A stretch of DNA of 25,536 nucleotides, taken from a virus. Each line of letters opens with the position of its first letter. Positions within the stretch are counted from its first letter, which is position 1. The notes below the pieces were generated by a model. That model was not told the origin of the DNA. It saw nothing but the letters and a program-made list of their open reading frames with translations, and made no database searches. Below are positions 3,366 to 21,785 of the stretch, one piece after another. The DNA is taken from positions 1 through 25,536 of IMG/VR virus record IMGVR_UViG_3300050821_000554; one strand, given 5' to 3'. The position numbers were made by a program, and so were the translations under genes.

Positions 3366-3815
3366 TTAGGTTGTGATTCCAACACCAAGAATAGTGTTAA
3401 TCGCCAGACTGTCAAACGTCCATTCGATCATTGGACCCGCTTTGTCATAAACGATTTCCGGCTTTTTCTTGAATGCACAACTCTGACAGGTACTCAAATC
3501 AAGGCGAAACGTGTCGGCAACCGTGATCAAGTTCTGACCCCACAAAGAGCTCGATGCTGACTGTAGGTCATACATGATCTGAAGGAATCCGTTGATCGGA
3601 GCAGTCTTTAGATACCGAAATGTTACGATACCAGCATTGCTCGCGATCAATGTATGCTGACCACGGCCGTCGGCGCCGATGATCATCGAGTTTTTGTCTT
3701 CAGTTGGTGCAATCGTGATGCCTTCTTCGGCAACGGCAGCGCCTGATCCTAGGTTGAGAGCTCCGCCAGGACCTGCAATCGCAGCAACCACATTTAGAAA
3801 ACTATACGACGACAT
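3366..3815 (-). CDS. Tail tube protein (DUF3277 family)
   Basis: This is a 149-aa protein with ATG at 3815 and a clear AAGGAG Shine-Dalgarno. The N-terminus MSSYSFLNVVAAIAGPGGAL, then EEGITIAPTEDKNSMIIGAD and a GQHTLIASNAGIVTFRYLKT segment, follow the DUF3277 pattern, in which an S.D....I.GPGG....G.GA..EEGI motif is followed by a GSLMHSLHA.K.GTVTVRLLKTSP.N-like stretch. These proteins have the tube fold and form the inner tail tube in phages that carry DUF3383 sheaths. The gene lies directly after the sheath gene. One CxxC (TCQSC) is present, a spacing often seen in this family as well. The family call is confident. Confidence 0.86.
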   Translation of the reverse strand: MSSYSFLNVVAAIAGPGGALNLGSGAAVAEEGITIAPTEDKNSMIIGADGRGQHTLIASNAGIVTFRYLKTAPINGFLQIMYDLQSASSSLWGQNLITVADTFRLDLSTCQSCAFKKKPEIVYDKAGPMIEWTFDSLAINTILGVGITT

Positions 3816-12685: not shown

Positions 12686-14379
12686 TTGACGATCTTCTTG
12701 TGGGCAGAATCACCAGTCTTTGTTTTTGCTGCGGGAACTACTGCGCTCACATTTCCTTTGTTTTCAGTTGCTCCAGGTGGTTTTTCTTCCACTTCCGTCG
12801 CCGGATCATCTTCGCCTTCAGGCATGGGTGGGTCTTCGCCTTCGGCCTCTTCAATTTGCTCATCTGTGATATTGCTGAACACACCAGTGTCGCCAGATGA
12901 GTTCCTGAGTTCCTTAAGGCTAGTCGAGCGATCAGTAATTCCAGCCTCGAAAACCTCGACGATGGTGTCTGCATTTGTCTTTGCATTAGCTGCCTTATCA
13001 GTGGGTGTCTGCTGCCATAGAGGTGTGAAGATGAATTCAAGGTCATCTGGAGCAGGTTTTCCAAGAGTCGACTTCCAAAGGATCTTTAACAATACCTCCC
13101 ATGGATTTCTGAGCTTTGCTTCTTGCTGAGCATTGATGTTGTCATAGTACATTCTCATGTCCGACTCGCCAGTCGAGTTCAAGCCAGATGGTGATTGACC
13201 GAATAGACGAACGAGAGGAATACCGCTAGATCCAGAAAGCTGCTGGCCAAATTGCAGCATCATATCTGAAAGGCCGGCAAACGTGTAAGGTGTGGCAGCA
13301 AAGGTGTCTTCCTTATCGATCAGCGTAAGGCCCTCGTTCACCTGAGCAAGCCTCATCATCTCAAACGATGCCGTAAGACCCGCAAGGGCTGCACCACCGC
13401 CGCCCACGACCTCTCTAAAGCCATCTATGCCTATAGTCCTAAGATTTGCACGATCGATCAGAGATGCTGACGACATGGTGGCATTATCAAACGCAATCAA
13501 GCGATCCCAAAGACGCTCAAGGATTGATTCGCCCCACATCTGCTCAGTTATTGCCTGAAAAAATGGCAGCTTTATTCCATCGTATCGAATCATACGCGAG
13601 AAATGAACGGTCATTTGTCCCGTTGGTGTTGGATTGCTTGGCTCGTACTGAGCAGGATTGTTTACGATATTGTAGAACTTTGGCAGGCCCATATCAGGAC
13701 CTGAGTCGATGATGTTATTGAGATCAGGATTCAACTGCCATCGATCAAATGGCACAATTCCTTGGAACTGATCTTGGCCAATCGTATCTAGATCTAAAGG
13801 CGTTTCAGTGTCCTGGCCTTCAATCTGAATCATTCCACAGCATGATCCGTAAAGACGTCCCCACTTAATAGTGCTGTTCAGCGATTGCGCAACTTGAAGT
13901 TTTGATATCGCGCTATTGATTTTTTTGATGTCTTCGTCTTCTTTGCTGGTGGAAATCTCCACGCCAGCCCTGGTCATATCATCCGCAACAGAATCAACAA
14001 CAGCGCCAACCACCCAACTGCCACGATAAGCTGCTTCGAGTAGTATGCGATTGCGCGTAATGAGATTGAATTCGTAGGTTCCCGCTGAAAGCGCATTTTC
14101 ATTATCCAACCCAAGTTTAGAAATGAAATTGTCGTAACCATCTTCAGTTCGACCGCGTACTGTGTCCATTGCGCGGCCCGTTGCAATAGCTTTAGCAGTA
14201 GCAAATATATTCCTTGCGTCAAGGATTTTATTTTTGTTATTTGACTTCTTATCTTTGTTAGATTTGCCAGCTTTTTTCATGGCAATCGCTATGGCCTGTT
14301 TCTTGGGTTTGCCACTTGCTATTTCTTTTTTGATGTTTTTTCCAATTGTTTTATTCGAACTTCCTGATTTAAGAGGCAT
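12667..14379 (-). CDS. Portal protein (DUF1073 family) with extra N-terminal peptide
   Basis: This is a 570-aa protein if started at the ATG at 14379, which has GGGGAG 5 nt upstream; an in-frame GTG nine codons earlier is less likely. It overlaps the end of the terminase gene by 11 nt. Residues from about 75 onward match the DUF1073 portal pattern, with [20 protein letters not shown], then [38 protein letters not shown] and a long C-terminal acidic/proline tail. The first 45 residues ([20 protein letters not shown], then [19 protein letters not shown]) resemble a small Lys-rich peptide usually coded by a separate phage gene. The dodecameric portal is the packaging and ejection channel. The gene order terminase, portal, gp7 is standard. 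Confidence 0.86.
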
Positions 14380-15913
14380 CTTTACTCCCCAGTCTTTCCC
14401 AGACACTCATCTTGTTGCCGGCCGAGATCATATCAATAATTGCATCAAGCATTGGATCTATCTGATCGTCAAACATATGACTGTCATTTGACGTGAAAGC
14501 TTCGCACTCTGCAATAAAATCATTTGTGAATGCCGCATCTTCTGGCAAGCATATCCTGCCGGCCTCGATATATGGAAGGGCGTCCAGGACTCTGGTGTAT
14601 TTGTCTTTGTTCCGCTCAAGACCCTTGATTGGAATGTTGTTGAGCAATTTCACCGTTTGAACCAAGCCTGTACCAGATGACTTATCCTCGACAATCATTT
14701 GTCTTAATTGACCAAAAATCTCAACGTCGAAGTCTTTGCATTTATTCCAAAAAGCAATTGCCCTGGACTGAAGCTCCGGCGCCTCCCACTTGCCCCTGAT
14801 CATGTCTAGTAGATATAGGCGATTGTCGTCGCCCAATCCCCAGCATTCAAAGACTGAGTAATCGTTTGCCTCTTTGGTTTTCTGCGCCGTGTCTGCAAAG
14901 ATCTTGCGATACTTGATCTGCGGTAGAACCTTGTACCTGACAAAGTATTTTCCCTTGATAATGTTACCGCCGAGTGATGTTGGCTCCTGCTGATATTGAG
15001 ATGAGAACACATGGCGACTGATCTGCGCGCCACTTTGATCTACTCCTCGACCTTCGGACATGGCAACAAGGTCAAGTGCACGCTCTTTGAACTCCCAGTA
15101 TGAATATCTTCCCAGACTATCTCTATTGGCTGAATCAATAAATGGGCGGTATTGATCTGGAACTGTTCCCATGTATCCGTCGTCAACCAGAGCTGGAATT
15201 TTGATAAATCGCCAATCCCCTTGAAGCCCTCCATCCTTAATGAACTGTACTGGATCTCCGTCGGATATTCTTTGCATGATAAGGATAATCGGAGTGTCTG
15301 GCCTTGCTCGTCGAGACTTGACAGTAGTGAGCAGTTTTCGATTTGCCGATTCCAGTTTAGATTTTGAAAAAGCATCTTCAGGTTTGAGAGGGTCATCGAT
15401 GATAATGGCACCTTGAAATCCATCAGCCATATGTCCGGCGCGGAATCCTGTGACCTGTCCTGACAGACTAGTAGCGTATACGCCTCCTGCAAGCTTTCCG
15501 TCGACGAGGATGTTCCATCGCTTTTTGGCTTTGGTATCAGTTGCAATGGCACGCGGCCAAAGTTCTTGGTATTCATCACTGCGTATTATCTCCCGCGCTA
15601 TTTGTGAGTTCAACAAGGCAAGGTCGTCCGAATAACTAAGATGAAGAAATCGCGCAAATGGATTTATTGCAAGACCCCGTGCGATGAGATTTATCACAAC
15701 GATCTCGGTCTTTGAAGATCCTGGTGACACGTTGATCACCAGATTTTTGGTTTCACCGTCGATGACTTTTTGGACTTCATCGCACATGTATTGATGATGC
15801 CAATTAACTATGAACTTAGTTCCATGTCGCTGCTTGAAAAAATATCGCGTGAAGAATAAATGATCCTTCTCGGCTTTATGTTTCGCGGCAGCGAGATAGA
15901 ACTCATCGCCCAT
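14369..15913 (-). CDS. Terminase large subunit
   Basis: This is a 514-aa protein with ATG at 15913 overlapping the preceding stop by one base (TAATG). The ATPase half has a Walker A of the form [10 protein letters not shown] (residues 61-70), a Walker B GAIIIDDP (about 168-175) and a coupling motif near LIMQR (211-215). The nuclease half has an acidic residue in [18 protein letters not shown] (Asp341), VEDKSSGTG (Glu409/Asp410) and [12 protein letters not shown] (Asp482/Asp483). These are the positions of the metal-binding residues of terminase nucleases. The Walker A is GSSK rather than the common RSGK or GSGK type. It packages DNA into the prohead through the portal coded next. Confidence 0.92.
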
Positions 15914-16095
15914 TAAGAAGCTGGAGCCGAAGTGCCTAAACCTATGCCGTGAATTCGCGAAAGAGGATAAGTGTACTCGCCAGCCGTCTCCTGAATAGAA
16001 AATGTAAAGTCATCAAAATCCATGAGAGTGCCTGATACCGAAATACCGCCACCATCAAGCATGATAAGCACAGCTAGACCTAACCATTTTTGCAT
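15913..16095 (-). CDS. Sm/Hfq-like small protein (putative)
   Basis: This is a 60-aa protein with ATG at 16095, GGAG 5 nt upstream, and its stop overlapping the terminase start (TAATG, 15913-15915). The middle reads [20 protein letters not shown], then DFTFSI, followed by a turn and [12 protein letters not shown]. This parallels the Sm1 motif (hxhxLxxGxxhxGxhxxaDxahxh) and an Sm2-like strand (compare YKHAIS in Hfq). The length fits a minimal five-strand Sm barrel, but the N-terminal helix normally present in Hfq is nearly absent. It could act as an RNA chaperone or a ring-forming protein. The alternative is a short membrane peptide, since residues 4-13 are hydrophobic, but the run is broken by Asp14. 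The family assignment is my inference from pattern only. Confidence 0.5.
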
Positions 16096-16108
16096 ATGAA
16101 CTCCGTAA

Positions 16109-16912
16109 TTAAGGATTGTTTGTGGGACTTAGTCTCAACGTATAGTAATCATCCGTGTATTGACTGTCCATAAATTCGTAAGGCATATGGAAATAACCAT
16201 CGATGCCCCAAGCATTTCCCCACGAGTTCCTGACAATGAAGCATCCACGCGCATCATCATATCCAACGCACAACACCGCATGACCGCCGACGATCTGCTC
16301 ATCGGCAGCCGGCATAGGCATTAATCCATTGGCCGCAATATCGGGTCCCATAAAAGATTCAAACACCTGGAAACCAAACATGAACGGAAATCCAGAGAAC
16401 AAGCAATGCTTCAGTTCATATCCAGAGTTCAAGGCGTAGTAGTTGTCGAGCTTGTGTTTGGCGGCATCTGCATAGGCTTCAGCAGATGGCTTTGTGAAAA
16501 GAGTTGCTGCATCATATGGCCAAAGAGTCTCACGGCAAACACCTTCTCCCATCAAAACCTTGCAAGCATCTCGAAGCGTTGTGGCTCCGTCATCCTGCAT
16601 GATCGATCCTTCTATGTCGCGCTCACCGTAGTAAATGAAATTACGAGATACGCGTTCAAAGGTGTTCGGGTCATAAACCTGTGGTCCTTCTGATTTTTCT
16701 TTGATCTCCAAGAACTCAACACCACCGGCTGTCGCATGACCGCTGCATGATCCCTCATCTCCTTGGTTCTCGACTGGCGAGCAACCTGGACGCAAGTCAA
16801 CCAAGCTTGGCAAAGTCTTTCGATACTTGTCCATGATGATTCTGTATCGCTGATTTGGCGTGTGGTTCTTGTTGGTTTCAAATTTATAGTTGAGACGTCT
16901 TCCATTGACCAT
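16109..16912 (-). CDS. Papain-like cysteine peptidase (C1A type)
   Basis: This is a 267-aa protein with ATG at 16912 and AAAGGAAG upstream. The catalytic set of papain-type peptidases is present in order: an oxyanion Gln (Gln50) and nucleophile Cys (Cys56) in VENQGDEGSCSGHA, His211 in GGHAVLCVGYDD, and Asn229 in VRNSWGNAWGIDGYF. The preceding DLRPGCSPVENQG stretch is typical of bacterial and phage C1 peptidases (DLRxxxxPVxDQGxxGSC). There is no signal peptide and the prodomain is at most about 35 residues, so it may be active soon after synthesis in the host cytoplasm or be packaged. It lies among cargo genes and not in the head maturation block, which has its own protease. Substrate is unknown. 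Confidence 0.85.
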   Translation of the reverse strand: MVNGRRLNYKFETNKNHTPNQRYRIIMDKYRKTLPSLVDLRPGCSPVENQGDEGSCSGHATAGGVEFLEIKEKSEGPQVYDPNTFERVSRNFIYYGERDIEGSIMQDDGATTLRDACKVLMGEGVCRETLWPYDAATLFTKPSAEAYADAAKHKLDNYYALNSGYELKHCLFSGFPFMFGFQVFESFMGPDIAANGLMPMPAADEQIVGGHAVLCVGYDDARGCFIVRNSWGNAWGIDGYFHMPYEFMDSQYTDDYYTLRLSPTNNP

Positions 16913-16922
16913 TTAACTTCCT

Positions 16923-18014
16923 TTATGTTTTGCGGAATTCAGGAATATCCTCGTTACGCTGTCGCATGTAATACCTGATCTCATCTCGCAATCGTATTTG
17001 CTTTTCAGTGAATGTTTCAAGCTGCAATAAGCCCTGGTGGTCATATTTGACGTCTTTTTCAGGATCGTAATCGTTGAGCGTCAAGATTTGTTTGCGACCC
17101 ACATAGTTGCGATTGACCTTGGCTCCATGATTGTCGTGGAATATTCCGCCGCGCACTACACCAACGTCGCGCTTGATCCAGCGATTGCACTTGGTTTGAT
17201 ATTCAAGCAGATATTCCGTGTACTTATTGTTGATCATCTCGGGATCAGTCGGGTTCATGGACTCGGTCACGGCTGCGGCGAAATGCCAATCGCCAGACCC
17301 TAGAATGCATTTGTCCGGCAGCATGCCAATCTCATTGAGAGCCTTTACGTCGGCTGCCCAGGCTCCTCCGGGAGGTCCGAACCAATGGTTACCGCCTGAG
17401 TTCGGATTGATCGGATGCTTGTGGTGGCGGTGATGTCTGTGATGACGATGGCGATGCCAGCAGAGATTTGGGTGCTCTTTGCAATGTTGATTTGGGATCG
17501 GCCCTGTCATGCCATTCTGAAAGTAGGTCGCCATATAACTTTGCGACGTGCCATTTAGCGGGCTGTAGTTCGAATCAAGATCCATAAAATGCTCATACAT
17601 CTGGACGAACTTGAAATGCTGGAGCTCATGCCAAGTTTCTTCAAACCAATCTCTGGCTGCCCGCATAGGCTTAAGATCAGCGTCAATCCAGGCAACCTTA
17701 TCGACCAACGGATCAAGCTGCATTGCGCGCCTGACACCGATGTTGACCATGTTTTCCTTATGCCACAACTCTTCGAATGTCCTTAGCTGGACGTGTCTCG
17801 GATTGCTGCTATCAGTAACCATGTGTACCCGATCACCAAAAGCACATTCCACGGTGATGAGCTTAGCTCCAGTTGATTCAACCATAGCTGCGAATGGATG
17901 ATAAAGTTCATAGCGCCTCTTGAATCTAACTGAGTTGCTCAAGACCGTGATCACCCAGAAGTGACTTAGGTCTGCGTGGACTTCATGACTTCTGTGCGGC
18001 CTGACATCGATCAT
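16923..18014 (-). CDS. Glycosyltransferase (GT-A-like, DxD) with His-rich loop
   Basis: This is a 363-aa protein from the ATG at 18014, which overlaps the preceding TGA (ATGA, 18011-18014); a TTG at 18029 would add five residues. The start of the domain is FWVITVLSNSVRFKRRYELY, and the DxD motif lies in KVAWIDADLKPMR (Asp111-Asp113). Further family-like segments are GPPGGAWAADVKAL, ILGSGDWHFAAA and VVRGGIFHDNHGAKVNRNYV. These parallel the nucleotide-sugar-binding and acceptor regions of GT-A fold enzymes. At about residues 187-200 there is a run of ten His in fourteen residues. The enzyme may modify phage DNA, host surface or virion proteins; the substrate cannot be told. Confidence 0.7.
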   Translation of the reverse strand: MIDVRPHRSHEVHADLSHFWVITVLSNSVRFKRRYELYHPFAAMVESTGAKLITVECAFGDRVHMVTDSSNPRHVQLRTFEELWHKENMVNIGVRRAMQLDPLVDKVAWIDADLKPMRAARDWFEETWHELQHFKFVQMYEHFMDLDSNYSPLNGTSQSYMATYFQNGMTGPIPNQHCKEHPNLCWHRHRHHRHHRHHKHPINPNSGGNHWFGPPGGAWAADVKALNEIGMLPDKCILGSGDWHFAAAVTESMNPTDPEMINNKYTEYLLEYQTKCNRWIKRDVGVVRGGIFHDNHGAKVNRNYVGRKQILTLNDYDPEKDVKYDHQGLLQLETFTEKQIRLRDEIRYYMRQRNEDIPEFRKT

Positions 18015-18220
18015 ACTTTTTTGATCCAAACCTTTGTGACTTCGAGTTGTGTGGCGTCGCCAGTGTAATTATAACAAAACCGTTCTGCACCAACTAAATT
18101 CGCAGACCTATACAAACGTATTGATCCATTCGGTCCGTTGGCCATTACATGGAACACCGCGATCCATTTAGATTGGTTTTTGGTTAGGACGTCGACTCTG
18201 CCAGATGAATAACCACTCAT
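18011..18220 (-). CDS. Small hypothetical protein
   Basis: This is a 69-aa protein from the ATG at 18220, chosen because it overlaps the TGA of the zinc-ribbon gene (ATGA, 18217-18220) in the same manner as its neighbours. An ATG at 18244 is in frame but has no Shine-Dalgarno and would run 28 nt inside the previous gene. The sequence is VDVLTKNQSKWIAVFHVMAN, then GSIRLYRSANLVGAERFCYN and LEVTKVWIKKV, which looks like an alternating-strand beta protein. I do not recognise a family. It is followed by an ATGA junction to the glycosyltransferase. Confidence 0.6.
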   Translation of the reverse strand: MSGYSSGRVDVLTKNQSKWIAVFHVMANGPNGSIRLYRSANLVGAERFCYNYTGDATQLEVTKVWIKKV

Positions 18221-18330
18221 TTTTGCTTTCTCGCATCTCGGCATGGCTTACAATGCCCGCTGTAGTGTCCCGTCGGCGCTTGGCATGACAGGCATGGTTT
18301 ATAGGTTCCGCGATCGTTCTTTTTACTCAT
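18217..18330 (-). CDS. 37-aa zinc-ribbon peptide
   Basis: This is a small gene with ATG at 18330, an AAAAGG Shine-Dalgarno 6 nt upstream, 8-nt overlap with the previous gene, and an ATGA junction to the next. The peptide MSKKNDRGTYKPCLSCQAPT, then GHYSGHCKPCRDARKQK, has two CxxC pairs (CLSC and CKPC) 12 residues apart and a basic tail, so it should bind one zinc ion. Such mini zinc ribbons are common in phages and often bind nucleic acid or RNA polymerase, but no target is evident here. Confidence 0.7.
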   Translation of the reverse strand: MSKKNDRGTYKPCLSCQAPTGHYSGHCKPCRDARKQK

Positions 18331-18340
18331 TGATTACCTT
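18323..18340 (-). repeat. Gene-junction repeat, copy A
   Basis: The plus-strand bases read ttactcattgattacctt. The copy at 18543-18560 reads tcactcatttattacctt, differing at two of eighteen positions. On the minus strand each contains the Shine-Dalgarno AAGG, the end KVINE of one gene and the ATG of the next, with an 8-nt overlap. See copy B. Confidence 0.8.
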
Positions 18341-18550
18341 TTTGACTTTAAAATATTTTCCCTTGCCCCAATTCCTTATTGCGTAGTTTTCATCGGCGCA
18401 AACATCAAGATCGTTGGATATCCAAAATTCATCGCCTTCACAAAGACATTCATTCGATGGTTCTTTGTTTTCGAATTCTTGTATTTCATGCAAGTCTTGT
18501 ATTTTTATGCAAAGATCATCGTATTTTTTCTTCCAATAAAACTCACTCAT
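18323..18550 (-). CDS. Small hypothetical protein
   Basis: This is a 75-aa acidic protein with ATG at 18550, GAAGG upstream, and 8-nt overlaps at both ends. It starts MSEFYWKKKYDDLCIKIQDL, contains CLCEGDEFWISNDLDVCADE, and ends WGKGKYFKVKKVINE. Three Cys in the middle (CLC and VCAD) may be coincidental. I recognise no family. The ending KKVINE is encoded by the same bases that provide the ribosome-binding site and start for the following gene, as also happens one gene earlier. Confidence 0.6.
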   Translation of the reverse strand: MSEFYWKKKYDDLCIKIQDLHEIQEFENKEPSNECLCEGDEFWISNDLDVCADENYAIRNWGKGKYFKVKKVINE

Positions 18551-18560
18551 TTATTACCTT
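18543..18560 (-). repeat. Gene-junction repeat, copy B
   Basis: This is the second copy of the junction sequence, 220 nt from copy A. It again encodes the end of one gene (KVINE), the Shine-Dalgarno and the start of the next gene within eighteen bases. Confidence 0.8.
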
Positions 18561-18761
18561 CACGCAATACTCCATAGCATCATCAATAGATGCCTTATTA
18601 ATATCATTCGATATATTCGAAGATGCATTAACGCCAATGACCCGCAGGCATTCAATGAATCTTCGAATTATTGAAGTAGCCTTAAATTCATCATCTGGAT
18701 TTGCAAACGATGATTCATCAAAATTATCGCACCAGTTCAGGATCTTTTCTTCGTTGGTCAT
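18543..18761 (-). CDS. Small hypothetical protein (paralogue of 19338-19610)
   Basis: This is a 72-aa protein from the ATG at 18761, which overlaps the preceding TGA (ATGA) and has AAAGGAAACAGA upstream; an in-frame start at 18803 is less likely. The sequence MTNEEKILNWCDNFDESSFA, then a middle with SIIRRFIECLRVIGVN and an end VKVINE, shares a WCD motif near residue 10 and an IIRR..EC motif with the gene at 19338-19610. The pair seems to have arisen by duplication. Function is unknown. The C-terminal VINE also encodes the next gene's start region. Confidence 0.6.
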   Translation of the reverse strand: MTNEEKILNWCDNFDESSFANPDDEFKATSIIRRFIECLRVIGVNASSNISNDINKASIDDAMEYCVKVINE

Positions 18762-19177
18762 TCTGTTTCCTTTAGCGCTTGTTGTGCCACTTTCCAGCCG
18801 CAAAACTCTTCTGGCGGTTTATTCGGATCACAGTTATAAGTAACTCCTGGAACCTTAAACCAATGCTCTCTCCATTCATATTTTTCAGCATAAAACTCAA
18901 GCGCCTCCCGCAGTTTTGCAACCTTGGCATCAAGCTTAGTGTTCCGTTCGCATTGCTGCAAATAAGCTTGTGCGTGTCCTTTGTTTTGGATAGTTAGCTC
19001 TACAATTTTTTCGTGCTGATATTGTTGCCCGTGCTCATACCCGAAGTCGGCGCCAGCTTTGAATTCTTCGCATTCCCATCCTTCATAAGTTTCGTCACAT
19101 CTATAAACTTCATCGAAATATTTTTCAGCAGCCTCATCGCGCAGCTTCGTCCATTCTGATTTGTCGGAGTCGGTCAT
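18758..19177 (-). CDS. Hypothetical phage protein with coiled-coil segment
   Basis: This is a 139-aa protein with ATG at 19177, ATGA overlap with the membrane-peptide gene, and GGAG 8 nt upstream. It has an acidic N-terminal part with FKAGADFGYEHGQQYQHEKI, then a long helix with KLDAKVAKLREALEFYAEKY, and a short end with FCGWKVAQQALKETE. The pattern of a coiled-coil followed by ALEFYA and a terminal A..AL is widespread in small phage accessory proteins. No enzyme motif is visible. It ends in the sequence KETE followed by TGA, whose bases supply the next gene's ribosome-binding site. Confidence 0.62.
   Translation of the reverse strand: MTDSDKSEWTKLRDEAAEKYFDEVYRCDETYEGWECEEFKAGADFGYEHGQQYQHEKIVELTIQNKGHAQAYLQQCERNTKLDAKVAKLREALEFYAEKYEWREHWFKVPGVTYNCDPNKPPEEFCGWKVAQQALKETE
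18759..18773 (-). repeat. Identical 15-nt translation start module, copy A
   Basis: The plus-strand bases cattctgtttccttt are identical to 21379-21393. On the minus strand they give AAAGGAAACAGAATG, a Shine-Dalgarno, spacer and ATG. In this copy the ATG opens the gene at 18543-18761 and the same bases encode KETE, the end of the previous gene. Confidence 0.75.
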
Positions 19178-19341
19178 TTCCAGCACTCCGGTGATTTGGT
19201 ATCAAGAAAACATTTTGCCTGAGAAGATCGCCTATTATTCGAATCAGCTGAGCCGCACCAGCATATCATCATGATTACGAATAAAATTGCAGACGTAAGA
19301 ACCAATACTGGCAACATAAAATCTACGATAAACTCTCTCAT
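19174..19341 (-). CDS. 55-aa membrane peptide
   Basis: This is a small gene with ATG at 19341, an AGAGGA Shine-Dalgarno 7 nt upstream, and ATGA overlaps at both ends (19338-19341 and 19174-19177). The peptide has one clear transmembrane segment (about residues 8-28, FMLPVLVLTSAILFVIMMIC), then a WCGSADSNNRRSSQ region and two Cys near the end (CFLD, ECWK). The N-terminus is short and the tail polar, so it may be a single-pass membrane peptide. No lysis gene has been seen in this window, so a role in lysis or superinfection exclusion is possible but not shown. Confidence 0.68.
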   Translation of the reverse strand: MREFIVDFMLPVLVLTSAILFVIMMICWCGSADSNNRRSSQAKCFLDTKSPECWK

Positions 19342-19610
19342 CGTATGTCCTCTGGTCTCACGGGCGGATTGTGATCGAGCTCATTTCCATGAATAAGCTC
19401 CACACAATCTCTTAAACTAATAGAACAAATCGCTTTGATGCCAAGAAGTTCGCCTTCTGCGTTCATGCCTTCTGCATTAGATTTTGCAGCATCTATGCAT
19501 TCGACAAGACGGCGAATAATCGCTGCCGAATTTGAGTTTCTGTTGCACACCTTGAGCATCACTTCATCTTGCCAATCGCACCAACTAATAAGCATTTCTG
19601 AATCTGTCAT
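19338..19610 (-). CDS. Small hypothetical protein (paralogue of 18543-18761)
   Basis: This is a 90-aa protein from the ATG at 19610, which overlaps the preceding TGA (ATGA, 19607-19610) and has GAAGGAATC upstream; an in-frame start at 19640 would add ten residues without a better site. The sequence begins MTDSEMLISWCDWQDEVML, contains SAAIIRRLVECIDAAKSNA and ends DHNPPVRPEDIR. It shares the WCD and IIRR..EC motifs with 18543-18761. No known function. It is longer at the C-terminus than its paralogue. Confidence 0.6.
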   Translation of the reverse strand: MTDSEMLISWCDWQDEVMLKVCNRNSNSAAIIRRLVECIDAAKSNAEGMNAEGELLGIKAICSISLRDCVELIHGNELDHNPPVRPEDIR

Positions 19611-20005
19611 TTTGATTCCTTCAAATGATTTTTTGCCCATTGATACATTTTACTCCAGCGCATCTCATCTGTAGGCCAACAATTTTCATCATTCTCATAT
19701 TCAATTTCTTGAACCAGTTGATGAGCTATATTCAACTTTTTTGAGAGTTCTTCATGATCGCTAGGATCTATAGCTTCAATGTTAATTCCTCTAGCATGTC
19801 CTATTGCGCCTAATGTGCAAAATTGACCGTCTTTAACGAGTTCATGCCTAATCAACTTCTTTTCTGGCATTGCTTCCAATACTTGAATAAGTTCCTTCAA
19901 AAACTCTTGCCCACGCTTGCCTCTAATGGCACTTGCCACTTGACCTCGCCATCGTCCATGCTGCAAATAATCATCGCAATCATCTGAATATCCATGTCTG
20001 CTCAT
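19607..20005 (-). CDS. Conserved hypothetical phage protein
   Basis: This is a 132-aa protein with ATG at 20005 and ATGA overlap with the preceding gene. The sequence MSRHGYSDDCDD, then GRWRGQVASAIRGKRGQEFL, KELIQVLEAMPEKKLIRHEL and VKDGQFCTLGAIGHARGINI, is a recognisable conserved phage protein that occurs in many phages of Proteobacteria. It has no established function that I know of. The C-terminal part contains a short WPTDEMRWSKMYQWAKNHL helix. The family call is confident, the function open. Confidence 0.72.
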   Translation of the reverse strand: MSRHGYSDDCDDYLQHGRWRGQVASAIRGKRGQEFLKELIQVLEAMPEKKLIRHELVKDGQFCTLGAIGHARGINIEAIDPSDHEELSKKLNIAHQLVQEIEYENDENCWPTDEMRWSKMYQWAKNHLKESK

Positions 20006-20208
20006 CGGTACACCCGATAAGTAGTGGTGGCTTTAGCATTTCCGTTTGGATCATTGGAATGAACGATGGCTTGATCTGTGTCCTTCAATTGCTGAAAGAT
20101 CCGTTCGCCTTGATAAACAAAATTGTCTTCACGCCTAATGCGGGCCATGTACCATTCGAGCCATTCCTGGTCGATGTTTTCGTAGACTGTGGTGATCGCG
20201 AGTCGCAT
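20002..20208 (-). CDS. Small hypothetical protein
   Basis: This is a 68-aa protein from the ATG at 20208, preceded by GAAGGA 7 nt upstream; a GTG at 20223 is in frame but less likely. The sequence is MRLAITTVYENIDQEWLEWY, then ARIRREDNFVYQGERIFQQL and NPNGNAKATTTYRVYR. I recognise no family. It has no Cys and a helix-rich N-terminus. ATGA overlap (20002-20005) couples it to the following gene. Confidence 0.58.
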   Translation of the reverse strand: MRLAITTVYENIDQEWLEWYMARIRREDNFVYQGERIFQQLKDTDQAIVHSNDPNGNAKATTTYRVYR

Positions 20209-20235
20209 AAATGATTCCTTCACTTTCTAAACCTA

Positions 20236-20517
20236 TTAGATTGATTGTAATTTGGTAACATCTTTCTCGGAGTCACGCAACTCTGCTGCTCTTTGAAATG
20301 CGGCATCGTCGGCATCCAACTGCTTATTTATCATGCGGGTTATGAAGTTAGCCATGAACGTCGATTGCTCAGCTGTGCCCGATACCACCGAACACCTGGC
20401 TCCAGCTGTACCGATTGAAACAATGATGCACGCATGCGGATTCTGCCCTATATGCTGATCCATTTGTTCCTTAATTTGTTGCGCTGGCGTCTTTGGTCCG
20501 TCTTCTTTCTTGCTCAT
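20236..20517 (-). CDS. Small hypothetical protein
   Basis: This is a 93-aa protein with ATG at 20517, ATGA overlap with the terminase-small-like gene, and an excellent GAGGAGG Shine-Dalgarno. The sequence has a helical N-terminus (TPAQQIKEQMDQHIGQ), a hydrophobic strand pair (NPHACIIVSIGTAGARCSVV) and a helical end (FMANFITRMINKQLDADDAA). No family is recognised. The strong ribosome-binding site suggests it is well expressed. Confidence 0.58.
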   Translation of the reverse strand: MSKKEDGPKTPAQQIKEQMDQHIGQNPHACIIVSIGTAGARCSVVSGTAEQSTFMANFITRMINKQLDADDAAFQRAAELRDSEKDVTKLQSI

Positions 20518-21134
20518 ACATCCTCCTCAAGTTTGTCGATCGCTTCCGCGATTCGTTGTTCAAATGTTATTGCTTCACGAGTTTCTGGTTTCTTATTGTC
20601 GTAGGTCAATACTGCTTCTTCCGATGCCGTATCGCGGCTAGCCCAATAGCGTGGTTTTCGGCGCGACAGACGTTCGAGCGCAGCCTTCCAGTCGGCCTTG
20701 ATCTCAGACCGCTTGACGATCGGATTGCCATCCTTGTTCCGCGCGACCTGCATCACCGGATTGCCACTGGCATCGCGTATTAATTGCCCATGCTCATCAA
20801 AGACCACGTCCATTTGATACTCAGCAGGTGCTCCCATTGCGTGTTTTTCGAGCACGGAAATGTCCCGGACTTCCCATTCAGCTATCGCTTTTTCGATGGC
20901 CCGAATTAGCTCACCGTATATAGTTTCTGGGTGTTCCTTGCCCTTTAAAACCCACATGCGCATAGTGTCATAATGTACGCCATTAAACGCAGAAGCCGTT
21001 GTCACAGAGGCGCCTATCTGAAGCGGCTTGATGATTTTTGCAATGAGCTCTGGGGTCAAGTCGGTGATATCGCCGATCTTGGTTTTGACTAATGATCGTT
21101 TTGGAAGCTGGCCATCGACTAACCTACGACTCAC
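20514..21134 (-). CDS. Terminase small subunit-like HTH protein
   Basis: This is a 206-aa protein starting with GTG at 21134; AAGGA lies 8 nt upstream, and no ATG is near. The sequence LTPELIAKIIKPLQIGASVT, then TASAFNGVHYDTMRMWVLKG and IRAIEKAIAEWEVRDISVLE, is a helix-turn-helix domain of the type found in phage small terminases (IxxxIxxGxxxxxAAxxAGVxxxTxxxWxxxG...). The end has KADWKAALERLSRRKPRYWA, the recurring W.AA...L.RR.P..W segment. The protein would recognise the packaging site. It lies more than 4.6 kb before the large subunit gene, which is unusual. Alternatively it is a transcription regulator with the same fold. Confidence 0.72.
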   Translation of the reverse strand: MSRRLVDGQLPKRSLVKTKIGDITDLTPELIAKIIKPLQIGASVTTASAFNGVHYDTMRMWVLKGKEHPETIYGELIRAIEKAIAEWEVRDISVLEKHAMGAPAEYQMDVVFDEHGQLIRDASGNPVMQVARNKDGNPIVKRSEIKADWKAALERLSRRKPRYWASRDTASEEAVLTYDNKKPETREAITFEQRIAEAIDKLEEDV

Positions 21135-21159: not shown

Positions 21160-21291
21160 TTATGGTTGGCGTCTTATCAAAGTACTCTTCCTAGCCTTAA
21201 TCGCAAGTCTCACAACGCGTCCGGCGCGTTTGACCACCACTAACGAATCACCGATCTGGACGGCCTCGCCTTCGTTGAACTCCATGATCAT
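21160..21291 (-). CDS. CsrA-like RNA-binding protein (putative)
   Basis: From the ATG at 21291, which overlaps the RusA TGA (ATGA, 21288-21291), this encodes 43 residues: MIMEFNEGEAVQIGDSLVVV, then KRAGRVVRLAIKARKSTLIR and RQP. The GE..xIGDxxxV, VRLxIxA and IxR positions match the core of CsrA (E. coli CsrA reads MLILTRRVGETLMIGD, and later VRIGVNAPKEVSVHRE), with two residues fewer in the middle loop. The C-terminal helix of CsrA is missing and the first-strand Arg residues are replaced. An alternative ATG at 21381 would add 30 residues and has an AAAGGAAACAGA leader, but it would run 94 nt inside RusA. CsrA proteins bind GGA-containing leaders and affect translation and stability of mRNA. 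Confidence 0.6.
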   Translation of the reverse strand: MIMEFNEGEAVQIGDSLVVVKRAGRVVRLAIKARKSTLIRRQP

Positions 21292-21785
21292 GAACCCCGA
21301 ATATGGCGCTGGCTGTTCATCATCTGAATGATCTCCTGCTGGCTTCTCGGTGACATCGGGGCAATCCTTATGATTGTGCATTCTGTTTCCTTTGATTTGG
21401 CAATGACCTTTTCGCAGTGTTCCGCAAAGAAGTGCTTGTCGTCAATTGAAAGCACCGTGGACAAGCCGTCCATGAGAGCCTTAAGTCTGTTTGAGCCGTC
21501 GAGTTGTTCCGTCTTGTTATTCACTGTCAAGAGCCTTGATTCCTCAAATGCGAGGTAGACACTGATCTCTAGTGCGAACGGGCGCTTTGCGGTCTCATTG
21601 CGCTTCTTAAGCTCCAGCAGCCAGTTCTTGATAGAGGTGAGGGCCCCACGATTTTGCGAGGCCCATAGCAGGCATAGGTCACCGTAATCTCGGTGAACCT
21701 TGGTCTTGACGAGACGTCCGTGAATGACCATGAGGTACTCATTGACGCTCGGTGGGAGTGGAAAATTGTTGAACCAAACAGGCAT
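21288..21785 (-). CDS. rusA: RusA-like Holliday junction resolvase
   Basis: This is a 165-aa protein with ATG at 21785 and TAGGAAC upstream. It begins VWFNNFPLPPSVNEYLMVIH, and has the family's LPPSxNxxY, then EQLDGSNRLKALMDGLSTVL and SIDDKHFF, where the acidic residues (Asp96, Asp106, Asp115, Asp116) are the expected metal ligands of RusA nucleases. E. coli RusA has DLDN where this protein has QLDGSN, so one acidic position differs. The C-terminus (about residues 143-165) goes beyond the family core and overlaps the start of the CsrA-like gene. RusA resolves branched DNA before packaging and fits with the recombination genes upstream. Confidence 0.8.
   Translation of the reverse strand: MPVWFNNFPLPPSVNEYLMVIHGRLVKTKVHRDYGDLCLLWASQNRGALTSIKNWLLELKKRNETAKRPFALEISVYLAFEESRLLTVNNKTEQLDGSNRLKALMDGLSTVLSIDDKHFFAEHCEKVIAKSKETECTIIRIAPMSPRSQQEIIQMMNSQRHIRGS
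21379..21393 (-). repeat. Identical 15-nt translation start module, copy B
   Basis: This is the same 15 bases as at 18759-18773. Here they lie inside the RusA coding region (also encoding KETE) and would place a ribosome before the ATG at 21381, the start of the longer form of the CsrA-like protein. Confidence 0.7.

Follow-up and report, generated by a model that had tools for sequence, protein, structure and literature searches.

An acidic Sm-like candidate ORF adjoining the terminase gene of a phage

Sm-family proteins and the candidate gene

The described systems closest to the locus analysed here are the Hfq proteins (PF17209), the LSm/Sm proteins (PF01423, including LSm5) and 1ycy, a conserved hypothetical protein, Sm/SH3-like by sequence, which we take to be archaeal, from Pyrococcus. 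Hfq needs its N-terminal helix. An Sm-like protein of putative cyanophage origin has also been solved (PDB 3BY7). Our search of the open literature found no paper on a phage-encoded Hfq. True Hfq genes are present in two virus contigs: L010 (positions 3530-3781, plus strand; about 32.5-32.8 bits against PF17209, with a cut-off of 27) and L013 (702-950, plus strand; 30.1 bits against the same cut-off). The two proteins are 89% identical, are nearest to alphaproteobacterial Hfq, and carry NTHA in place of YKHA and VG in place of FD. The gene for the terminase large subunit (terL) of L010 is 37-39% identical to the one described below, and the L010 Hfq gene lies 2.2 kb upstream of it.

The sequence analysed (the window) is an entire IMG/VR virus record, 25,536 bases long. 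An ORF encoding 60 amino acids is located on the minus strand at 15913-16095, with its start at 16095 and a TAA stop at 15915-15913. A sequence-only reading had described this ORF, naming no strand, as an Sm/Hfq-like gene with a good ribosome-binding site, and both the ORF and the site are there: the 13-nt gap separating it from the gene upstream (16096-16108, minus strand; TTAATTACGGAGTTCAT-ATG) holds a GGAG 6 nt 5' of the ATG. Codon usage is gene-like, with a score of 0.269 bits per codon relative to 0.259 +/- 0.10 for the real genes of the window, and above the 99th percentile of wrong-frame windows (0.250 bits per codon). No in-frame start codon was seen upstream of the ATG in the bases inspected, and the predicted RNA structure of the start region was not above chance (z +1.3). 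The 60-aa ORF is a real gene. It resembles the L010 case in being a small gene of Sm-like sequence upstream of terL in a phage related by terL, but L010 and L013 encode true Hfq and the L010 gene stands apart from terL, whereas the candidate adjoins it. Since the pairwise score of the L010 Hfq and the candidate is 1.4 bits, the two are not orthologues.

The Sm1-like block and the predicted fold

Pfam matches, PDB sequence matches and a pattern scan delimit an Sm1-like block at residues 9-34 (15994-16071, minus strand). The motif L..G...G.L..FD.F, close to the pattern first pointed out in the sequence-only reading, is present in the candidate protein. Among 15,784 six-frame phage ORFs it was found in the candidate alone, and five shuffled sets contained no instance; this pattern is post hoc, being fitted to E. 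coli Hfq and the candidate, and it misses the true Hfq of L010. The Sm1-like block is real and unusual.

Two of the three Pfam matches of the candidate are Sm families, and both fall in the register that had been proposed, at scores far under the curated cut-offs. Hfq (PF17209) matched with an E-value of 0.24 (residues 16-37 to profile positions 22-43; 11.5 bits, cut-off 27) and LSM (PF01423) with an E-value of 0.28 (residues 3-30 to profile positions 5-31; 11.4 bits, cut-off 23.4). The other sub-threshold matches were phrog_18244 (E 0.13) and DUF2964 (E 0.14). At E <= 1, PF17209 was not reported in G000 and PF01423 was not reported in a separate profile search; NCBIfam yielded no match. The top three PDB sequence matches were 1ycy and two LSm5 entries, all in register, with E-values of 1.3-1.6. 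Such scores can be real, since E. coli Hfq, used as a calibration, finds its true distant relatives MJ1435 and LSm2 near this level (E 0.68 and 0.83, respectively). No Sm-clan match was obtained for any of nine shuffled or reversed controls of the candidate. With a profile built from over 60 Hfq proteins of alphaproteobacteria, phages and E. coli, the candidate scored, as a single sequence, only 4.4 bits (p 0.002), and hhalign of the candidate versus Hfq returned 5% probability with p 0.007, compared to p 0.09-0.49 for four controls. The sequence alignments to Sm/Hfq span Sm1 only or little beyond.

The structure of the monomer was predicted with and without the guidance of Hfq sequences. The unaided AlphaFold model (pLDDT 61) has four strands, one of them at residues 8-12, and no N-terminal helix; searches with Foldseek and VIA listed no Sm fold for this model, which is too poor. 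When eight true Hfq rows were included, an alignment that biases the result, pLDDT rose to 74 overall and to 74-86 in the core. Strands at residues 8-13, 18-27, 31-36, 39-44 and 48-53 then follow the Sm order in a five-strand barrel, which is seen only when the model is Hfq-guided. The best 50 Foldseek matches listed for the guided model are all Hfq chains (TM 0.66-0.77), and VIA-align gave a Z of 8.0 to 6gwk across 54 residues. Because the Hfq rows push the model toward this fold, it is no proof of it; what the modelling establishes is that an Sm-type barrel is compatible with the sequence. Overall, the claim of an Sm-like protein is partly supported: the in-register Sm, Hfq and LSm matches and the guided model speak for it, the sub-threshold scores and the poor unaided model against it, and it constitutes the best single lead rather than a proven assignment. 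Tentatively, and with somewhat less than even confidence, we favour a helix-less acidic Sm-like small barrel that is accessory cargo in the slot between terS and terL and is coupled to terL.

The main rivals are a non-Sm barrel and a short secreted peptide. Under the first, the product would be another small barrel (SH3-like, RimP-C-like or PRC-like) and its G-x-L-x-x-x-D resemblance to Sm proteins would be convergent. The 1ycy segment matches LSm5, LSM, RimP-C and DUF6897 models, and for this nearest PDB sequence LSM is a poorer fit than either DUF6897 or the RimP C-terminal SH3. In VIA-align of the guided model, non-Sm SH3-like barrels (Kustd1711, biotin ligase and a designed barrel) equal the Z of Hfq, and many unnamed phage proteins reach similar Foldseek scores. 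Against convergence, the Hfq and LSM families both match in the right register, and FDDF is nearer to the SFDQF of Hfq than to generic barrels. We consider a non-Sm barrel unlikely, while giving it real weight.

The hydrophobic N-terminus allows for the second rival, in which residues 1-17 (MQK, ten residues and DGGG) would be a Sec signal releasing ~43 mature, beta-rich residues into the periplasm or envelope, perhaps together with the papain-like peptidase encoded upstream. Residues 4-13 could form the core of a signal peptide: their 8-residue hydrophobic maximum is 2.92, versus 2.66 and 2.73 for two signal-like phage N-termini in relatives and 2.15 for Hfq, and by eye K3 suits a short n-region and G-x-G the cleavage rule. 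However, the 11- and 19-residue averages (2.12 and 1.62) lie below those of the signal-like N-termini (about 2.5 and 1.95), the core is only 10 residues long, being ended by D14, and an A-x-A is lacking. A strand at residues 8-12 is moreover present in the unaided model, and export would leave the Sm-register matches unexplained. We see this as a rather improbable reading. A transmembrane helix was rejected, the hydrophobic core being just 10 residues long. The sequence-only reading, which rated a membrane peptide as weak, had overlooked a signal peptide for this N-terminus.

The junction with terL and the terS-terL slot

The terL gene occupies 14369-15913 on the minus strand (phrog_38, E 1.3e-100; PF17289). 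Its start is probably the correct one, since the N-terminus is conserved: the terL products of relatives begin with MDEFKSAAAK or MDEYYLAAAK. The overlap claimed between the candidate and the terminase gene is confirmed: the last A of the TAA stop is also the first base of the terL ATG, forming TAATG (junction CTTCTTAATGGGC). No Shine-Dalgarno was found in the 15 bases 5' of the terL ATG, unlike in the relative L203, where GGAGGAG is present ahead of the terL start. From the TAATG overlap and a terL start devoid of a Shine-Dalgarno, it is fair to infer that terL translation is coupled to the candidate ORF; ribosomes terminating at the candidate TAA would reinitiate on the overlapping terL ATG.

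The same two features would suit a leader whose peptide hardly matters and whose ORF mainly delivers ribosomes to terL, and L018 likewise possesses a small unrelated ORF (51 aa) terminating beside terL. A leader would not need a barrel-like sequence, though, and the codon usage of the candidate matches that of full genes. We rate this alternative as very unlikely.

Directly upstream of the candidate, a gene for a papain-like (C1) cysteine peptidase is found at 16109-16912 on the minus strand (PF00112, E 5.7e-13; phrog_16701), with catalytic Cys, His and Asn motifs recognized by eye. The closest phage-encoded relatives of this peptidase come from jumbo phages, namely a 595-kb uncultured phage (44% identity) and Burkholderia phage FLC9 (38%). 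It is preceded by a gene at 16923-18029 (minus strand) for a 368-aa protein with a His-rich stretch (HRHRHHRHHRHHKH) and no Pfam, PHROG or NCBIfam match; the only relatives of this protein that were found belong to Xanthomonas jumbo phage XaC1 and to a single IMG/VR contig. The terS-like gene (20514-21134, minus strand) is 45% identical to an ORF of L016/L205 located in a matching RusA-CsrA-terS-terL order.

About 4.6 kb of variable cargo separates terS and terL in the window. The genes from 16109 to 20513, between terS and the candidate, account for ~4.4 kb; L205 has one gene between terS and terL. The terS-sharing phages L203, L204 and L205 all keep the order RusA, CsrA-like, terS, terL. In L205 the slot is filled by a LuxR-type HTH gene, in L204 by a gene of 201 aa, and in L203 by genes that include HTH, Dam-like, HNH and PAPS-reductase-like ones (names given by eye). 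This region looks like a cargo hotspot, and since its cargo differs in each terS relative, the candidate is private cargo and no conserved packaging gene. In each of the four terS-related phages, RusA and terS are separated by the CsrA-like gene (70-73 aa, with an extended N-terminus), which lies at 21160-21381 on the minus strand of the window (PF02599, E 9e-4, below the cut-off) and at L203:7753-7971, L204:2501-2713 and L205:7779-7997. CsrA is already known in phages, with one virion peptide reported for JC1 (PMC9144972).

Direct tblastn of the candidate peptide against phages and plasmids returned chance matches only. Exact-peptide scans of IMG/VR and 85,000 GTDB genomes yielded zero hits; they require eight consecutive identical residues, such that relatives of ~50% identity could escape. 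A degenerate G-x-L-x-D-F-D-D-F scan of IMG/VR retrieved 21 stretches, none of which was Sm-like by eye. At loci related by terL, terS, the peptidase or the 16923-18029 protein (gp16923), the only Sm-like neighbour was the unrelated true Hfq of L010/L013. These searches, which covered the position upstream of terL in related phages, found no orthologue.

Departures from Hfq and LSm, and their meaning

The elements of the Sm1 block are ordered and spaced in the candidate as they are in Hfq, and the guided model superposes on Hfq over about 53 residues. The features on which Hfq depends are absent. Seven residues precede strand 1, and the N-terminal helix is missing from the unaided and guided models alike. 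The candidate has a net charge of -4 and a pI of 4.2; the corresponding values of the E. coli Hfq core are +4 and about 10. The Sm2 motif YKHA is not there either: the candidate has YPLS or PLSR at this place. The sequence-only reading had aligned YPLSRI with YKHAIS, which is a poor match; by secondary structure, the guided model sets P44-L45-S46-R47-I48 at the place of Hfq Y55-K56-H57-A58-I59. That reading put too much trust in the Sm2 strand; it was correct on the motif and right to flag the ORF. The likeness to LSm/Sm proteins, LSm5 included, lies in the VLIxL...GTLxxFDDF register, but the Asn that follows FDxxM in Sm1 and the IRG of Sm2 are missing (the candidate reads FDDFTF and LSRIHG), and the protein has only 60 residues. 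As for 1ycy, it is the best PDB match, over residues 2-36 with GTLxDFD in common, but at an E-value of only 1.3 and with 71 aa.

The candidate is not an Hfq. An RNA-chaperone role is unlikely because there is neither an N-terminal helix nor YKHA and because of the net charge of -4 and the pI of 4.2, the latter arguing against RNA binding. A phage RNA chaperone resembling Hfq, which the sequence-only reading had envisaged, finds some encouragement in the Sm1-like block and in the true Hfq of the related phage L010, but these same absences, together with the 4.4 bits of the Hfq profile, render it highly improbable.

The ORF is an accessory gene of small size that lies in the variable cargo region between terS and terL of a tailed phage. 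Under the favoured reading of an Sm-like barrel, its product would be a minimal Sm-like (SH3-type) beta-barrel of five strands that lacks an N-terminal helix. The acidic charge and the absence of the residues through which Hfq makes its contacts suggest that it would probably bind a protein partner or self-assemble rather than act as an RNA chaperone. A more specific version, which we regard as a long shot, is that a helix-less acidic Sm ring is made, through coupled translation, in fixed proportion to TerL and joins the packaging machine, or caps the host Hfq via its strand-4/strand-5 edges; such a ring would bind protein instead of chaperoning RNA.

If the barrel is not confirmed, the candidate would be another orphan small phage gene, and a lone Sm1-like block would have to be viewed as weak evidence. 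If it is confirmed, 60 residues would be enough for an Sm fold, without the helix and with an acidic surface, that is still kept as phage cargo, and an Sm-like protein would be tied to the expression of the terminase.
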